A stretch of 64,000 nucleotides of DNA from Lithospermum erythrorhizon (Eukaryota > Streptophyta > Magnoliopsida > Boraginales > Boraginaceae): positions 90,324 through 154,323 of the forward strand of contig JADFUC010000743.1 of the NCBI GenBank assembly GCA_019722365.1, given 5' to 3'. Below are positions 14,900-33,742 of this stretch, one piece after another. The notes beneath the pieces are model-generated. The model was not told the DNA's origin. It worked only from the letters and a program-made list of their open reading frames with translations, and searched no databases. The translations under genes and the position numbers were made by a program. The first letter of the stretch is position 1; the number at the start of each line of letters is the position of its first letter.

Positions 14900-17800
14900 T
14901 CCAAGTAAATATATACTTCGTTCTAAATAATGTACCAATATTTAACATCTCATGTGTCATTACATTCTGGTTGATGATTATTATTTATAATTTGGATGGA
15001 GTGAGAAAGAAGGAAAATATGATGAGGGGACTGCCTCGCCATGCGACATGCTTGCTTGTATGGCTGTTTGCATAGCTTGACTCCTTTGGATGGTAGATTA
15101 GTTTGGATTTTAATTTGTCATGGACCCACTTCAACACATGTAAAGTTGGGTTTATTATCAATGTTTTCTACAATGATATAGCTAGTTGTTAATATGGAAC
15201 CAATAAAAGTTCTATCATCTCAATTAGAGGCATTGCTTCAACTTGGCATGTATGAAATTGGCTCCACTACTAGTTCAATGTTAAAATTTGGTTTTCAATA
15301 TGGATGAACTCGTTAAGTATTCCAATCCTTTTCAAATAACTTATTCCAAACCTAAGCTAGCAATAAGTTGTTTTCTATACCCTTCTCTATACCCTTCTCG
15401 GTCAATAGGCACGAGGGAAATTATTAGGAGGGAGCAAATGTATAGAAAGCCAGATAATAATAAGCTGTTATTAACAATGTGGGAGGTCAAATAAAGGAAG
15501 AGACGTAGTTTGAATGATATTCTTTTAATATTCTTTGAGAACAACTGGTTTCAAACTATGATAGGCAAATGTCAAGTTCAGACCTCTACTATAATTTGCA
15601 ATCTCAATTTATCCACGTCTCTTAATCATATGTTATTCCATTATAAGTGGGAATCTTATTGGTGTCTTAAAACTACTCACTTGCAGGGTGAGGTGAGAAT
15701 AATAGAGATAATTGCCTAAAACAGTCCCTAGAATTTGCTGTGTACTAGTAGTCCCCTCGACTCATTTAGTGTTATACGGGAACGACAATGTAAAACCAAT
15801 TCCCGATACCCGACCGAAAGTACTGACTGATATTCACCACAGTTATACCACGCGGTATGTTTTGGTCTCGATACCGAACTAAATCGGACCGATAATCCAT
15901 AAATATACGCCTAAATTTTTGGTATATGACAAAATATTCTACCTCGGACCGAAATATCAAAAAATCATAAACGAAATATGCAATTTTTTATCACGATAAG
16001 ATTCGCCCAAATCGAACTACAAAAAATCCTGACCCTTGCATCCACATGGTGTTATGTGCTAGATCTCGATCCAATTTTTTTGCCTATACGTGAATCGACC
16101 GACCTATAATAGGCTCCCGATCCTTTGAGGAATTTTTTTTACCCGAATTCAAACTTGGTAACCGCACTACTATCATTCATGGAGAAAAACCACTCAGGTA
16201 ACACGTTTCAAACTCCAGCGACTATCAAATAACCAACACAAACTTCAAATAACTAAATTCGCTTTTTTATCAAACTCCAAAGCATCAAGCTACAAGAATT
16301 ATCTCAAGAATAATATATATAATATAATGAATATCAAATTTCAATATTTTGATTACAGTTATTTACAAAATTCTTTAGGCTATCAGACGCTTAAGAATTG
16401 AGTTGTTGCTAATTTACAAGTATGATTGCTAAAAGGTTGTTGATGTGATTGACAAAGGGCAGTAGTGGTTGAGCTGCGGAAAAGTGCAAAATAGAAAGTA
16501 ATTAAAATTTAAAAGAACTCATCTTGCTTTTACAAATTAAATTTTTTCTTTTAATGTCACCTAGCTAGCATAAAGTAGATTTATTAATTAATCTTTAATT
16601 TTAATATTCCTATAATAATAATCTTTTGCTTATTAATCATTCTAAGTTTTTGGACAATCGAATCTCCTCGTACAACAAGTACCCAATGCAAGAATCACAA
16701 ATTGCCAAGTGAATGTTTGCGCTTTGCCAGAACGATCTCTCCTGTGTACGACTAAATCAAACATTTAAACTGAGATAATAAATAAAGTACTCACTATTTA
16801 CGAAATTTATAAATTATACTTTTAATTTATATTATAATTTATTTCACAACGCTTATATGATCCGTTATAATTTTTTACTACTAGATTTAAAAATTTCTGC
16901 TATCATATCTTCATTTCGGGGGCTTAATAAAAAAATACACATTATGTAATTTTATTCATTGTTGAAAATATCACTTTTCTCTTTTAATAAGAAATACAAA
17001 TATGTTAGTTTTTATTTTTCATTGTTAGAAAACATCTAGTTTTCGCCTGACAAGAAGAAATTATTTAGAAGTACTATTCAATTTTATTATATATTTATTT
17101 TACCATATTTTAATTGATGATTGGATCGATAATTTTTATGAAACGCTCTCAATTTTAACCACGCAAAATGCCCAAAAAGGCCACATTGACGCCCTGTTCG
17201 AATGTGAAATACTCCAAACGAATCTATATCGATAATCAATGAAATAAAGATGACATGCCTCTTTCAAAACTATGTATTTTATAAATAATTTTTTAATAAA
17301 AAGTTAAACCTCAATAGTATATATATGATGAATATTACTTAATATGATTTTTTTTTTAAAATTTTAACATAAATAACAACTTTAATATAAAAGGTCACAA
17401 TAAGTCATTCAAATAAGCATTGTGGATACCGATTTCAGAATACCAACGCTCATCAATAAAAGAGATTATATACCTTATATATATTCATGCATGTATTTTT
17501 AGAATTATAAATATATCACGATGGTATTTCATATAGAGTGAAAACCAATATAAAGATATTACTTATTAACATAATTTGTTTTGGGCTCACTAATTACTAA
17601 TCAATATTAAAATGTGAAAGATTGATTTTTTTAATTTCTTTTCATATTGAATTCAACTCTAATTAATTATTGCATCTATAGTTTATTGATAAAGATATTT
17701 TTATTTAAGCATTAAAACTAACATGTTATATATATATTATAATAAAAAAAATAATTTTTTGAAATAAAATATCCAATCTATTACTCCTACCATACTAAAT

Positions 17801-19527: not shown

Positions 19528-20500
19528 CTGGCCATATTAAAGCAAACTGTGACTGTACAGATTGTATGTAAAATTTCCATAACTGATCTTGCGAGAGTAT
19601 TCAGCTGGCATATCCTCATTTGATAGAAAAGTAACCAAGAAATATAAATTGTCAAACCAAGGCGCAAAGCAATAAGATTAAGTATTGAAGTTAGTACATG
19701 GGCAAGCTAGAGAATATAAATAGAAATCTCATCATTCACGAAAATGATAAAAATTGGGATTAAAACTCACTGAATGTGCTGTTATAGCTAGACATGAAGT
19801 ATATTCAAGAATCAATTTTCCAATGGATCAGCAAATAAAAAAGAAGCCAAACCTGCATAGATGCCCCGCCAAGTTCAATAATTCCAGTTGTTTGTTGGGG
19901 ATCACCTCCAAGAGTCCCAAGGGCATAGTTAGCAACAACCCAAGCATATACCCCTTCATCATAGCCCACATCATATATCTTTCTTAGCTCATTTTCCAAA
20001 CCTCAGGAATTACACTAAAACATTACCAAATCGAAACATATACATAAATAACAGTAATTCAAACATCACATTGCACTCACCACAATCATATATACTTTTT
20101 AGCTCATTTTTCAAACCTCAAGAATTACACTCAAGCAATAAAACATTATCAAATCGAAACATATACATAAATAACAGTAATTCAAACACCACATTGCATT
20201 TAGCTCGTTTTTCAGACCTAAAGAAGTACACTCAAGCAATAAAACTTTATAAAATTGATACATATTGATAAATAACAATAATCCAAAGACCACATCAAGC
20301 AATAAAACTTTATAAAATTGAAACTTGAACCCACTACCAGAAAAATCAAGAACCCCCCTTTTCCTCAGCCTACTCATACACCAACATCATCCTCAAAAAC
20401 ATCATAACTAAATACATGAATCCTAGTACCTGTACTTCCACCATCTATAACAATCCCATACCTTTTCCTATCATCAAAGTCACCATTTTTACTCAAAAAA
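19528..20500 (-). pseudogene. GDA1/CD39 apyrase pseudogene (partial)
   Basis: Three minus-strand blocks are recognisable. Block 1 (about 20400-20490): KRYGIVIDGGSTGTRIHVFS, i.e. apyrase conserved region 1 (DGGSTGTR, phosphate binding). Block 2 (19853-20001): WVVANYALGTLGGDPQQTTG, then GIIELGGASMQ, which is conserved region 4 with the usual Ala of GGASAQ changed to Met; donor CAG|GTTTGG. Block 3 (19528-19635): VTFLSNEDMPAEYSR...GNFTYNLYSHSLL, stop, YGQ|GTAAGT. The order and orientation fit a gene of the plant APY3-7 type, membrane-anchored enzymes hydrolysing nucleoside tri- and diphosphates. Breaks: the frame shifts after block 1, the exons between blocks 1 and 2 are absent, the acceptor before block 3 reads ttcttg instead of an AG, and block 3 has an in-frame TAA. 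The 3' exons were not found. Confident on family, fairly confident that it is non-functional. Confidence 0.8.
19985..20328. repeat. Tandem array of about 100-bp units copied from the apyrase exon edge
   Basis: Units start at about 19982, 20098 and 20201, with a partial fourth at 20296. Shared words are agctcattttccaaacctca, attacactcaagcaataaaa, tcgaaacatatacataaata and cagtaattcaaacaccacat. The first unit contains the acceptor and first ~25 bases of apyrase block 2; the second carries a diverged copy of that exon edge. Confidence 0.8.
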
Positions 20501-27309: not shown

Positions 27310-29330
27310 GTTTAATGTTTTAGAGTTTTGCATACAACAAAAATTAAACTGAAAAGCGTTTAATGATTGACATCATATCATATGTTGATATAGTTTGTAA
27401 ATAATGATGTATTTCTGTACTTCTGTTAGTTGTTTGATGAATTTGGGTATTTAGATAATGAGTTTCAAGATTTGGGCTGAACTGAATGCATGGGAACTTT
27501 GTCTGATTGTAGTTTAAGCTGTAAAGTATAAGGTTGGTTATAGATCTTGATGTTGATGTTGGTTTTGTTTATGGTATAAATGCTGATTTGATTCAAATTA
27601 TAGAGTTTAATGATTGATAAAAGCGTAACGTTGACTATTATATAATGAACGCTTATAAATCGGAGCTAAAGTGGACAAGCATGAATATTAAAACACTTAC
27701 ACTTCAACCACCTCTCTTCTCCTTATTTTGTTTCTTCTTTGATTTCTACAGGTATCATTCTTTTACACCCCCACTTGCTGGTACGTGTTTCCTATTTCTG
27801 AATTTGTTAATTGAGAAATTATTGTTAATTTATTTTAAGAGTGTCCATTATTTGTGATCATTTTAGAAGTTTGTAATAATGAATGCCAAATGTAAGCTAA
27901 AAAATGATTATACTCTATTTGTAATTTATTGTCGCCAAATTATTTCAACTATCAAGTGGTTCTAAATAAGACTTAATAAAAAATTAACTATGATACACAA
28001 TTAATATATAAAAGGGAAAAAAAAATTAAAAGATACGAAGAGAAAAAATCTCCCAAAAAATTATTATTTGACTGATCATTCGATATAATACTTCATTAGG
28101 TTTATTTTAAAGTGTTTTGAATGAACTAAACACTTTTAGTTAAATGTGTAAACCTTACACTTAATTTTATGTTAATTTAACATCTACAGTTATTTGATGA
28201 GTCTGCACCAAAAAAATCAACTAATAAAATGCAAAATGTGATTAGGGATAAAGGAGTGTATTTTTTATTTTAAATTAAAAATTATCAAATTGACGGAATC
28301 AAAAAGTAAGATAATACGGAATACATTTTTTTTACTATGAAATCAAAGTCTACTCATTCTTGTAATTCAAATATTGAAATGGTAATGCAAGAAATGGAAC
28401 ATCAAAACGTAACATCCAGTTGGCACAAAACATTAAACGGAAACATCCTTGAAACTTTGATTGGCAGACAACATAAAAGATAACCAACTTAACCAAGTTG
28501 AGTCTACTCTTTTGTAGGTTCTCACAGCAGCAGCATCCACTGGAGCTTACTACAATCAGCAGCGAACTTACTTGGGTTCTTCAGGTACATTTAAAATCTC
28601 TTTTTAACTTGTCCTAATTCTTTATTCCTTTCATCCTAGTCAAGTTATTGTTTTGATTATGATTACAATGCAGCTTGATGGATATCTCCACATGTTTTCG
28701 TAGTTTTAGATTGTTTCCATAACGTTTCTCATTTCTAATTTCCGAAACATTTCTATGTTTCGTGAATACAAAACTCATGTTCAAAACAAAATTTAGAACA
28801 ACGATACTAGCATTATTACTTATCAAATTTTCATTTTGTAACTATAACTTATCATCATCCAACCTTTGTTTACTACCCCATTCAGATTAGCTGTCGTCTT
28901 CATCACCAGCTTTGCTTTGCTGGTTCCTGCTGCTTCCACCCACACCACACTTTGTAAGTTTTATACCCTCCATTTTCATCTTCATTCTAGAGATGTAAGG
29001 AAAATTGTTTGTGAGTTTTATTCCCTCCGAGTATCTTATTTTCTAGGTCACCAAACAATGACTTCTAACAAGCTATTTCTTTTGATGCTTAAAAAAAAAA
29101 AATAAGAATAAGATTTTATTAGATCATAAGTTATTGATCTTATATTTCAAATGAATTTTTGGTTTTACAAAATTTTATTTGTAATATGCCCAACAATATT
29201 GAAATATCAAATTTTATCAATAATGATTTTCTACTAGTAATATTAAAATATCATATTTATCAATACCTTTATTTACTCAAATAATAGTTAAAGATGCTTA
29301 CAAAAAAATTTGTAAACATCCAAGTCGACT
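27310..29330. other. Mostly non-coding, two exon-like pieces
   Basis: AT-rich DNA. Two short blocks have splice-like edges on the plus strand: 28514-28581 (acceptor TTTGTAG, donor CAG|GTACAT) and about 28887-28956 (acceptor CATTCAG, donor TTT|GTAAGT). The second reads LAVVFITSFALLVPAASTHT, a hydrophobic signal-peptide-like stretch, and could be the remains of the first coding exon of the downstream pectin acetylesterase, but it has no ATG in the right place. Confidence 0.3.
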
Positions 29331-29340
29331 CAATTTCTAA

Positions 29341-29440
29341 AGATTGTTTTGGGAGGACAAACCGATTTATGAGAAGTGTCAAAAATATTACCTCGGTCGG
29401 CATGACAAAGATTCCTTTGACATCACAAGCGTGATAAAAA
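29341..29440 (-). pseudogene. Extra inverted copy of PAE exon C end and intron C/D
   Basis: agattgttttgggaggacaa, gatttatgagaagtg and caaaaatattacct at 29341-29393 are the reverse complement of intron C/D (30930-30984). The following ggcatgacaaagattccttt is the reverse complement of the end of exon C. It is less diverged than the main left arm and lies outside the order expected for it, so it is a separate duplication. Confidence 0.7.
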
Positions 29441-29469
29441 TTGTGTGGTTTTATTTGAAATTAATTATC

Positions 29470-30410
29470 AGACAGCCACTAAACAACTTCACTATAATAC
29501 CCATTTTGCGTTTCTTCATTATCATTTTGCGTTATAGAACACCTCCAGTTTTCAATGGCCTCCATTCTCTATCAGCGATGTTGATCATAGGGGAACTGCC
29601 ACGATCGTCTTTACCACCGGGAGCGTGACTTGCCAGTCCGGTCAAGTTGCACTGGCCTGGCGCAAAATGCTTTGAACTTCCCTTGTTGACCAGCCCATGA
29701 TTTATTAAACTTTGAAACCACGACCTTTCGCTCGCAAGCACACGCCGTAAAATTGGGGATGAGTTGTCTACATTTATTAAAGTCTTGAGGTCCTTGCTTT
29801 AAATTCATGACGTAAGCGAACAACGCCGCCTCCTCATCAGATACATCGAAATCTTCTGATGAAAAATAAATTTGAACTATAAAAACATTTTAAAATACTG
29901 ATTTTAGTTGCACCAAATGACGCCGCAATATTTTATTTGGGTTCTGCTGCGAATGGTTGCCATTACCGCCAGGCCTCCTCGGTTAGCGGTTTATGGCGAT
30001 TGTTTCGAGGACAAGACGGAGAAGTGCCAAAAATAGCCGGCCGGCATGCAGATACCTTTGCCCAGACCATGCCGCTTAAGACTTCTAATTGCCGAGATAA
30101 TTTTAAGATTAAGTTTTGAGCCTATTTAATGACTGACACCAGCTCTATGTCAATATGAATAATCCTGCATCCTATATCGGGCAGCTGGTCACCTATTCGC
30201 CATCCGCAAAGCAGGTGACATGTATCTTGCCCGTTGAAATCTGGGCATCGTTATGGGCGCTGGCGACGTGCCTGAAAAGGTGCAGACTGAAGCGGTATTT
30301 TTTCTGTGCCCATTTTCTGAGCATTGCTGTGCTCCAACAGTTTGACATGTTATTTGCGGCCTCAGTGATAACCATGATTTGGTCATCGTATAGCCACATT
30401 TTAAATAATA
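29470..30410 (-). pseudogene. Degenerate inverted copy of pectin acetylesterase exons A-F
   Basis: Reading the minus strand from 30410 downward recovers, in order, diverged versions of exons and introns of the plus-strand gene at 30462 onward. They are exon A (about 30390-30260), exon B (about 30245-30190, ending in CFADGE where the gene has SFAGDGE), intron B/C, exon C (about 30080-30040), intron C/D (gaggacaagacggagaagtg near 30006), exon D traces (29880-29990), exon E end (near 29750), intron E/F with exon F (aagttcaaagcattttgc at 29679-29662) and the start of intron F (29612-29480). Blocks are shortened and full of indels, and the copy is richer in GC and CpG than the gene. It cannot code. 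Open frames on both strands of this stretch are by-products. It could be an old inverted duplication or an assembly artefact (see findings). Confidence 0.72.
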
Positions 30411-30461
30411 TTAAATTTCATTAAATGTAGCTGAATCTAATATTATTCCAAATGTAATGAG

Positions 30462-33400
30462 GTTGGTGTAATGACATTAAATCATGCGTTATCCGTAAAT
30501 TTACTAAATTTGGATCGTCTAGACGCATGGCAAAACAATATAAATTTGTTGGAATTTTAAGCAATAAAGCTCAAGAAAATCCAGGTTTTAGAAAAATTTC
30601 ATCTGTCTTATATCCTTCAATTATCTTCTTTCAATTTGGCCCCATTTTGTGGATTTCTTTTAAACTGGAACAAGGTACATGTCCGCTATTGTGATGGTGC
30701 CTCTTTTGCCGGGGATGGTGAATATAAGGTATTAACATACATTATGGAGTTCTTTAGGATTAATTTCATATTGACCCATAAATTCTAGTATCAAGTCATT
30801 AAATAAATAAAACTAATCTTAAAGAAATAAATTTATCTCCAGAAAGCGGGGCTCCAGTTTCGAGGCCAACGCATATATGCAGCGGCTATCGAAGATCTAA
30901 TGGCAAAGGGAATGCGTCATGCCGATCAGGTAATATTTTTGGCACTTCTCATAAATCCATCTTGTCCTCCCAAAACAATCTCATAAATTGTATCTCAGGC
31001 ACTTCTTTCGGGAGGCTCTGCTGGTGGTGTAGCTGTGCTTTTGCATTGTGATGCATTCAGCAGCTTATTTTCAAGAACCACAAGAGTAAAATGTCTGAGC
31101 GATGGTGGACTATTCATGGACACGTAAATCTCTAATCAATTATCATTTAGTTATAGCTACTAAAATCAAGTATTGTTTTAAAATGTATTTTTTTTATAGT
31201 TCAAATTTATTTTTTCATTAGGGTTGATGTATCTGGTGGGCATAGTATGAGGAGCCGTGTCTACGGCGTTGTTAGCTTGCAGGTATTTGAAAATTCGTAG
31301 TTGATGTATCTGGTGGGCATAGACTATCCTTATCCTAATTTCTGATATGTGCAATTCAACAGGGAGTTCAAAGCATTTTGCCCGGTAGTTGTACAAGCCG
31401 CTTTGACCCAGTTTTTGTAAGTCGCATACATTAATTTTAAAAGACGATCATTATTATTAGTTCCCCTCTTACCCTATGATGACATGAAACTTTGATAGAG
31501 GCGGAATCTAGCATTGAAGTTTAAGGTGTTTTTTCTATAGCATAAAATGTTGAGAATAAATAAAAGAAATTTTACAAAATAAGATTTTATTATAGTGAAG
31601 TTTGTTTAGTGGCGGATCTCGAACTCATATTATACGAACGCCAACATATTACGAGTTAATTAATTTCAAATAAAAAATTTATTATTTTGTATTCAATTAA
31701 TATATTTTTATATAAAATGACTTATAATGAATAGTGTAGAGAATGTTTTTGATGGAGGGAGACAATCACTGTATTTTGATAAAATAATTCACTTTTTGTA
31801 ATGTAATAAAAATTTAAAATTGGAGGGGATCACATAGTGGTGTTATCGTCCGGATCCGTCCAGTTCTTGCATATCCCGGAACCCTCCCGTTAAGGAAACC
31901 GGGTAAATCGAAACTGAACCGATAACATATGTATTAAGGCCCGAGTCTTATTATTTATTTAGTCCGAGTTCAAGTTGTATTATAGTTATAGTTATTGGAT
32001 TAGGCCCGTAGGGTTTCATAGAGTAGTATATAAAGGGATGACCCCTCATTGTAATCACCAAGACTGATTCTTCAATATTACATACAATTTATCAATATGG
32101 GTTAAAAAAATATCCTGGTACCGAACTGATACGTGTTGTATAAAAATAATAAAAAGGTAAGAGGGAAGTGTTGTATGAAAATAATAAAAGATAAAGAGGG
32201 AAGAAATGGAAGAACATAAAAAGCTATAGAATTTGGGAAGAAAAAAAGTAAGAAAAAGATAAGAGGTTAGAGAAAATAAATAAAAGATAGTCTTTAGACT
32301 TAATAGGAGAGATGATGAGCTCCTAGTTGAAATTTCCACATTCTGGAGGCAAACATAAACCTAGCCATATTTGATGTCAGCAACCTTTTTCTTTCTTTTT
32401 TTGCAAACGAGATTAGAAAAGACACAACTCTTTGGACTAGAGTAATAGACATTAGACAAGAAGAAAAATATGAATGAAAAGGAAGAAGATTCGAGTAGAA
32501 TAGAAGAAGTGCAAAAGCAAAATTAGTTAGGTCGCTTTGATTGAACCTATCTGGATATCATGATAAATATAGATAAAATCACATATTCTAGATAAATAAT
32601 ACAATAATTACTATAATTACATCAATCATAATAATACCAAATCACAATAATATATTTAATACAATAATATCAACAATATCTAATAATATCTCTAATAGGT
32701 TCTCGATTAAAAAGTGACAAATTAATGATCCGATTTTATTGGACTGATAGTCCGGCACATCTCAGATCTCCTGGTCCAATAATATCACTAGGATCTCCGG
32801 GTTCCCGTCCATTAACATGGCTGCCAATTTGTTCGATATAAAAATTCCAACATATGGGATAATATTACATATTTAGGAATAATGTTGGCTTATTCTAAAC
32901 AAAATTTGTTTGTTTTTTATCACATCTATCGCTTATTTTCTAATTTTATGTGGTTCTAAATATTTTTTTCTACAGTGTTTCTTCCCGCAGAATCTAATTA
33001 ACTACGTAAAAACTCCTTTGTTTATTCTTAATGCTGCGTATGATACGGCCCAGGTAATTAATAAATAACTTTGTTGTCACAAGATCTGCACATTTTTCAT
33101 GATTGTATTTTGACCTATCTTTTATGTGTAGATTCAAGCTGGTATAGCTCCAAATGTATCAGATCCTGAAGGCAAATGGAACGGTTGCAAGTTAAACTTT
33201 GCAAACTGTTCATCATCACAAATTAAGATTTTTCAAAGTGAGTTTTATGCCATTAGAATTTTAATATTCTTCACTTGTTAATAATATTGTTTGCTTTTTT
33301 ATCTCCGATCAAATTAGGAAGTCACTTTATATATTTTTCAGAATTTAGAAATGAAATGGTGAAAGCTGTCCAAGGCTTTGGAGCTAAAAGACAAAATGGT

Positions 33401-33742
33401 CTATTTATAAATTCATGTTTCGCACACACTCAATCAGATAAGCAGGTCACATGGCTTTCTAAGAAACCCCCAATGATCGATAATAAGGTATGACTCAATA
33501 TATGAAAATCCACCTCAAATTTGTACTACTTTATGGCAATTAAATGAAAAATGATAATCATGTTTCGTTTTGTTTAAGAATTAATATTCGTACTAAAAAT
33601 TATGGTTGGCAAAATTTTATAGGGAATATCACGTTCTGTTGGAGATTGGTATTTTGACCGTTCAGAGATTAAGAAAATTGGTCTTCCTTATCCATATGAG
33701 AAAACTTGTCACAACGAGATCCTCACTACATCCCCATATTGA
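30462..33742 (+). CDS. Pectin acetylesterase (Notum/PAE family), N-terminal exons missing
   Basis: Ten exons: A 30462-30584 ([33 protein letters not shown]), B about 30650-30728 ([20 protein letters not shown]), C 30843-30929 ([20 protein letters not shown]), D 30999-31123 ([20 protein letters not shown]), E 31222-31282, F 31363-31416, G 32976-33053 ([11 protein letters not shown]), H 33132-33237, I 33342-33487 ([16 protein letters not shown]), J 33623-33742 ([13 protein letters not shown], stop TGA). Phases agree from C to J. The family are secreted alpha/beta hydrolases that remove acetyl groups from cell-wall pectin; Ser (GGSAGG), Asp (AAYD) and His (FAHTQ) of the triad are all present. 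Oddities: several cysteines are replaced (GCSAGG to GGSAGG, AHCQ to AHTQ, CPYPCDKTC to LPYPYEKTC). No start codon, signal peptide or the first ~100 residues were found. Exon B lacks a normal AG acceptor and appears to carry a 2-base insertion (ttcttttaaactgg). So it may be a pseudogene, or a gene whose 5' half lies in mis-assembled DNA. Confidence 0.82.
31302..31323 (+). repeat. 22-base echo of exon E inside the next intron
   Basis: ttgatgtatctggtgggcat from the start of exon E (31223) recurs exactly at 31302, 20 bases after the exon's donor. This is typical of a template-switch or filler-DNA event during break repair. It has no splice sites of its own. Confidence 0.85.
31835..32120 (+). mobile_element. 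LTR-like fragment inside intron F of the PAE gene
   Basis: Intron F is 1.56 kb, far longer than its neighbours. It contains a block resembling a copia LTR: a GC-richer start (ttatcgtccggatccgtcca), then a TATA signal (agtagtatataaagggatga near 32020), a leader rich in ttcttcaatattacatac, and a primer-site-like tggtaccgaactg at 32117. No gag or pol follows. Another GC-richer patch at 32735-32840 may be from the same insertion. Boundaries are not certain. Confidence 0.35.

Follow-up and report, generated by a model that had tools for sequence, protein, structure and literature searches.

Inverted duplication of genes is an origin of plant siRNA and miRNA loci. In the window, by which we mean the whole 64,000-nucleotide stretch of Lithospermum erythrorhizon DNA analyzed here (C334:90324-154323 of its genome), a sequence-only reading had proposed a large palindrome at a pectin acetylesterase (PAE) locus, in which an inverted copy stands head-to-head with the readable gene. 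Is this palindrome an evolved hairpin of that kind, or was it made during the reading and assembly of the genome?

Local alignment recovered the head-to-head pair of arms (Table 1), inverted and collinear over exons and introns, so that the same order on both arms held as proposed. The arms aligned to each other with a score of 484.7, compared to a mean of 135.2 (standard deviation, 14.5; maximum, 181.4) when the left arm was dinucleotide-shuffled 200 times. By this margin the palindrome is real as a feature of the assembly, and all four of the anchors named for it were located: 31362-31381 with 29662-29681 (95% identity), aaagacgatc...agttcccct in both arms, an exact 17-nt match between 30934-30950 and 30019-30035, and the pair at the turn, 30396-30417 with 30434-30455 (86% identity). 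The spacer between the arms is very short, as in a fold-back artifact. Identity is uneven along the left arm, with exact runs reaching 24 nt. Exons and introns are alike affected by the divergence between arms, with 0.126 substitutions per aligned base in exons versus 0.146 outside them and indel events at 0.237 versus 0.185; exons were hit slightly harder, with a matched fraction of 0.595 versus 0.673. A separate feature of the right-hand copy is an exact 23-base direct repeat (31223-31245 and 31300-31322), by which an exon start recurs inside the following intron.

Table 1. Positions of the palindrome, its neighbor, and the PAE exons in the window
Feature	Position	Strand	Description or basis
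Left arm	29417-30417 (1001 bases)	-	Inverted copy of the right arm with very many errors; interpreted as uncorrected long-read sequence
Palindrome turn	30418-30433 (16 bases)		Separates the arms
Right arm	30434-31696 (1263 bases)	+	Exons B through F of PAE and their introns; PF03283 match and tblastn with P0001
Piece of a different PAE copy (exon C end and intron C/D)	29032-29425	-	Similarity to C2227 and orientation
PAE exon 1 (MVMQEMEHQNV...)	28379-28420	+	tblastn with P0001 (LIER_05888, L. erythrorhizon), identity at 12 of 14 residues
PAE exon 2, portion matching QQRTYLGSS	about 28557-28583	+	tblastn of P0001; weak alone (E 0.42)
PAE exon 3, signal-peptide-like AVVFITSFALLVPAASTHTTL	28890-28952	+	Identity with P0001 at 21 of 21 residues
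Rest of the PAE exons (B to J)	30461-33739	+	tblastn with P0001 (residues 106-430), interrupted at introns; includes the right arm as its initial portion

The N-terminal exons of the gene had been claimed to be missing at the turn of the palindrome. Exons 1 to 3 were instead found upstream of it, at the three places listed in Table 1. Because these exons lie upstream, the palindrome is within the PAE gene, at the point where one expects the exon that encodes residues about 50-105. A tblastn search with LIER_05888 found no credible match to these residues in the window (the one hit, at 14987-15067, was at chance level, with an E value of 8.5), and a stretch like them is present at the paralogue C1320. 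The surroundings of exon 1 (28363-28462) have an 85% copy at C1945:59116-59215.

The right arm and the downstream exons encode a member of the plant PAE family (PF03283; LIER_05888 and LIER_24669/Leryth_016717), with LIER_05888 of L. erythrorhizon as the closest protein (77%). PF03283 scored 45.4 bits on 30461-30667, above the cut-off of 26.6, and 25.5 bits on 33132-33281 alone, slightly under it. Unlike the plant PAE genes, this copy is altered at several invariant cysteines. It departs at 18 of 133 columns that are more than 97% conserved in 120 relatives, four of them cysteines, while LIER_05888 departs at 16; because of these changes, the copy at 30461-33739 may be a decaying tandem copy. 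Its splice acceptor before 30663 was judged doubtful by eye. The left arm differs from the plant genes in having no recognizable PAE coding. It gave no tblastn hit with LIER_05888 at an E value of 10, and the three open reading frames scanned in it had no PF03283 match, with one weak, unrelated hit below the cut-off.

The body of LIER_05888 is far closer to C1320 than to the window, with 37 of 37 residues matching at C1320 over residues 306-342. Therefore, this gene model fuses window-like exons 1 to 3 with a C1320-like body. In LIER_26260 (P0238), pieces resembling exons E-F and exon B are combined; at the level of a gene model, this suggests that the species has tandem PAE copies. The protein P0233, a plant-like PAE fragment from a 714-base contig, is labeled Acinetobacter baumannii, and this label is probably contamination or mislabeling. 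Elsewhere in the window, the minus strand at 19805-20436 carries exon pieces with the motifs DGGSTGTR and ELGGAS, which we take to be apyrase-like; a nearby piece has an in-frame stop. Pfam searches of three other open reading frames of the window gave no matches.

To polarize the differences between the arms, we used as outgroups the paralogues C1320 and C2227 from the same genome, which are about 73 to 76% identical to the right arm. Of the 113 sites private to the right arm, 71 have the right-arm base in the left arm as well; there, 3 others carry the base of the paralogues, 13 a different base, and 26 a gap (first parameter set). The other two alignment parameter sets gave 66 versus 3 and 65 versus 10 for the right-arm base versus the paralogue base. 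Since the left arm shares 71 of the right-private bases and only 3 of the paralogue bases, it is, judged by these sites, a copy of this right arm at essentially zero age. A further 741 sites have one base in common to the right arm and the two paralogues; of these, the left arm matches 479, carries a substitution at 94, and has a gap at 168. By this count, nearly all change that followed the copying fell on the left arm. This one-sided change implies that ordinary evolution of two neighboring copies hardly fits, while reading error does.

The genome search bears on where else the left arm could have come from. With the left arm as the query (E 0.001, simple repeats skipped), the only sequences returned were the arm itself and an 83-base portion of the right arm, and no match was found in plasmid records. 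The right arm (761 bases as the query) had 13 further genome matches on eight other contigs. Direct comparison to the DNA of C1320 and C2227 gave one left-arm match of 27 bases (96%) in a C2227 intron. A left arm copied from another paralogue was rejected on the genome search and on the sharing of right-private bases. As supporting evidence only, the right arm was the family-like one in 28 cases and the left in 0 with the first parameter set (20 versus 2 and 21 versus 2 with the other parameter sets), counts that include 30842-30928 (29 of 174 codons) in the wrong frame.

The usual decay of sequence runs toward AT. Substitutions private to the left arm went the opposite way, with 64 from AT to GC and 14 from GC to AT (p 9e-9), and the GC content is 42.7% in the left arm versus 34.0% in the right. 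We find it hardly credible that the palindrome is an old inverted duplication decayed by mutation, an imperfect hairpin able to seed siRNA or young miRNA genes. Such a duplication would explain collinear inverted similarity across exons and introns far above chance, but of the 87 right-private sites where it has a base, the left arm sides with the paralogues at just 3, the private substitutions and gaps fall on that arm, and the substitutions are biased toward GC. The one-sided change and this bias led us to reject it.

We compared these changes with simulated decay (eight settings of 30 runs each, which assumed substitution toward AT and insertions as frequent as deletions). Among the six settings that were alignable, the excess of AT-to-GC over GC-to-AT changes never went above 1.23, versus 3.0 observed, and it was 6.0 and 3.0 on the small alignments of the two remaining settings; this result is illustrative only, because the AT-ward bias was built in. 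The asymmetry is also not decisive alone, since three of seven other palindromes show an excess (69 versus 27, 49 versus 28, and 47 versus 26). The ratio of indels to substitutions was 1.50, compared to simulated maxima of 0.60 to 1.43 in the six alignable settings and, in the remaining pair, 1.77 and 2.33, and to 0.29 to 1.12 in nine repeat pairs of the window. We did not use this ratio as proof. Given its assumptions, the simulation cannot test either the direction of substitution or a deletion excess.

PacBio missed-adapter reads are insertion-rich. Relative to the right arm, the left arm had 118 deletions (308 bases), 63 insertions (103 bases), and 121 substitutions with one parameter set, counts that vary by set (one of five left the arms unaligned). 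The left arm is thus deletion-rich and shorter than the right, which is what a fold-back artifact would give. The sequence-only reading had offered, as its fallback, a missed-adapter read used to fill a gap. The artifactual part of that claim is supported by the zero-age copying and the one-sided errors, but the missed-adapter part is not. Although a PacBio missed adapter would produce an identical mirror geometry, the surplus of deleted over inserted bases is of the wrong kind, and the matching assembly is Nanopore-based, as far as the available text of Auber et al. 2020 (PMC7261806) describes it. We rejected this source by error type and regard it as very improbable.

The window's assembly is probably the L. 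erythrorhizon genome published by Auber et al. 2020. There is a small mismatch between the window's genome (366,103,689 bases in 2391 contigs) and the figures in the part of that paper available to us (367,405,101 bases and 2465 contigs). The same text describes R9 MinION reads at about 20-fold, Guppy 2.3.5, DBG2OLC with RemoveChimera 1, and Pilon (PMC7261806). DBG2OLC, by the portion consulted of its description, patches uncompressed long reads together with a consensus step afterwards and is designed to drop chimeric reads (PMC5004134). In the sections available of Spealman 2020 (PMC7229812), a Nanopore read past an inverted-duplicate junction is of low quality, with bases miscalled or missed, and the portion after the junction is consistently shorter than the portion preceding it. 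Heinz 2026 (PMC12870357), in the excerpt available, treats fold-back reads as a general artifact and cites, from one study, typically 1 to 4% of genomic DNA reads.

Taken together, we think it likely, from the sequence, that the left arm is an uncorrected Nanopore fold-back read kept in the assembly. A Nanopore molecule would have folded back, template first and then complement, so that the right arm's own sequence was read again along its opposite strand, this time with a great number of errors. This single read may then have entered the assembly backbone, with a left arm presumably beyond polishing by short reads, and the exon for residues about 50-105 would have been displaced by fold-back sequence. 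We favor a Nanopore fold-back over a PacBio missed adapter because the second arm is deletion-rich and shorter and the assembly is Nanopore-based. The locus shares a mirror copy, a short turn, and a noisy, shorter second arm with the Nanopore fold-back errors in the text available from PMC7229812 and PMC12870357; unlike those, it was found in a finished assembly and is known from its letters alone and not from raw reads. Several points count against this reading: the uneven identity along the arm, its 27-base match in a C2227 intron, the small mismatch in assembly size and contig count, and the lack of a clear second patch in the scan described below. A fold-back read would also have had to escape the chimera removal and the consensus step of DBG2OLC, and this reading does not account for the junction of the left arm to ordinary, itself inverted sequence at its left (29032-29425).

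That neighboring sequence matches C2227:502224-502531 (76%) and 502502-502624 (83%), where the C2227 gene is on the minus strand, and it is contiguous with C2227:502224-502624. From this similarity it looks like a genuine inverted piece of another PAE copy. Part of it, 29331-29406, repeats 30916-30990 once more (88%), inverted and out of order, which makes three copies of that segment. Grouping the three copies by score gave 58 for left with right and 57 for left with third. We rejected 29331-29406 as part of the palindrome, as it belongs to the separate paralogue fragment. A dispersed repeat of about 200 bases (29071-29265) also lies inside the fragment. At least 38 of at least 43 genome matches to 28340-29330 were over this repeat, at 73 to 84% identity, with 40 of 98 candidates scored.

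The inverted fragment is relevant to a brand-new inverted duplication in the plant itself, with a near-identical left arm that was misread by Nanopore and then escaped polishing, since short reads would go to the right arm instead. Such an event would equally make the left arm an essentially new copy of this right arm, and real inverted duplicates also yield a noisy second arm in the available part of Spealman 2020 (PMC7229812). Chimera removal was active in the DBG2OLC run by the text available of PMC7261806, and the fragment adjoins the arm, so local inversions seem to occur. However, with about 20-fold long reads, opposite-strand reads would be expected to give a clean left arm, fold-back reads are a common artifact according to the excerpt of PMC12870357, and the copy would need to replace a gene exon. 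We consider this duplication unlikely.

A scan of 303.6 kb of the assembly, window included (1478 centers), showed no clear second fold-back patch among the seven other places inspected. About 40 centers scored at or above the maximum of 460 control pairs (183.5); the seven palindromes inspected were very AT-rich or changed in both directions. An inverted pair on the same contig (C334:78306-81186; L020 and L021) has changes both ways, 69 versus 89, and is probably a repeat element.

The palindrome had been proposed as a diverged duplication giving an imperfect hairpin and causing the truncation of the gene. This does not hold for a left arm that is of essentially zero age yet massively and one-sidedly different. 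The locus shares head-to-head copies of a gene fragment with inverted-duplication siRNA and miRNA loci, but an evolved hairpin of that type is expected to diverge on both arms, and here the divergence is one-sided, of essentially zero age, and not evolutionary decay. A search of the whole window at Rfam gathering thresholds gave 0 matches. As the left arm is probably an assembly error, it is probably not a source of small RNA.

An uncorrected mirror arm in a published hybrid assembly can mimic an ancient hairpin and mask a missing exon, which calls for caution. Polarizing private changes with paralogues tells evolution and reading error apart even when no reads are at hand, and this check is applicable to other palindromes in long-read assemblies. 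If the brand-new duplication were true, the plant would have a near-perfect 1.26-kb hairpin in a PAE gene with one exon removed, and this would yield double-stranded RNA, near-perfect in its pairing, that is directed at the tandem PAE family.
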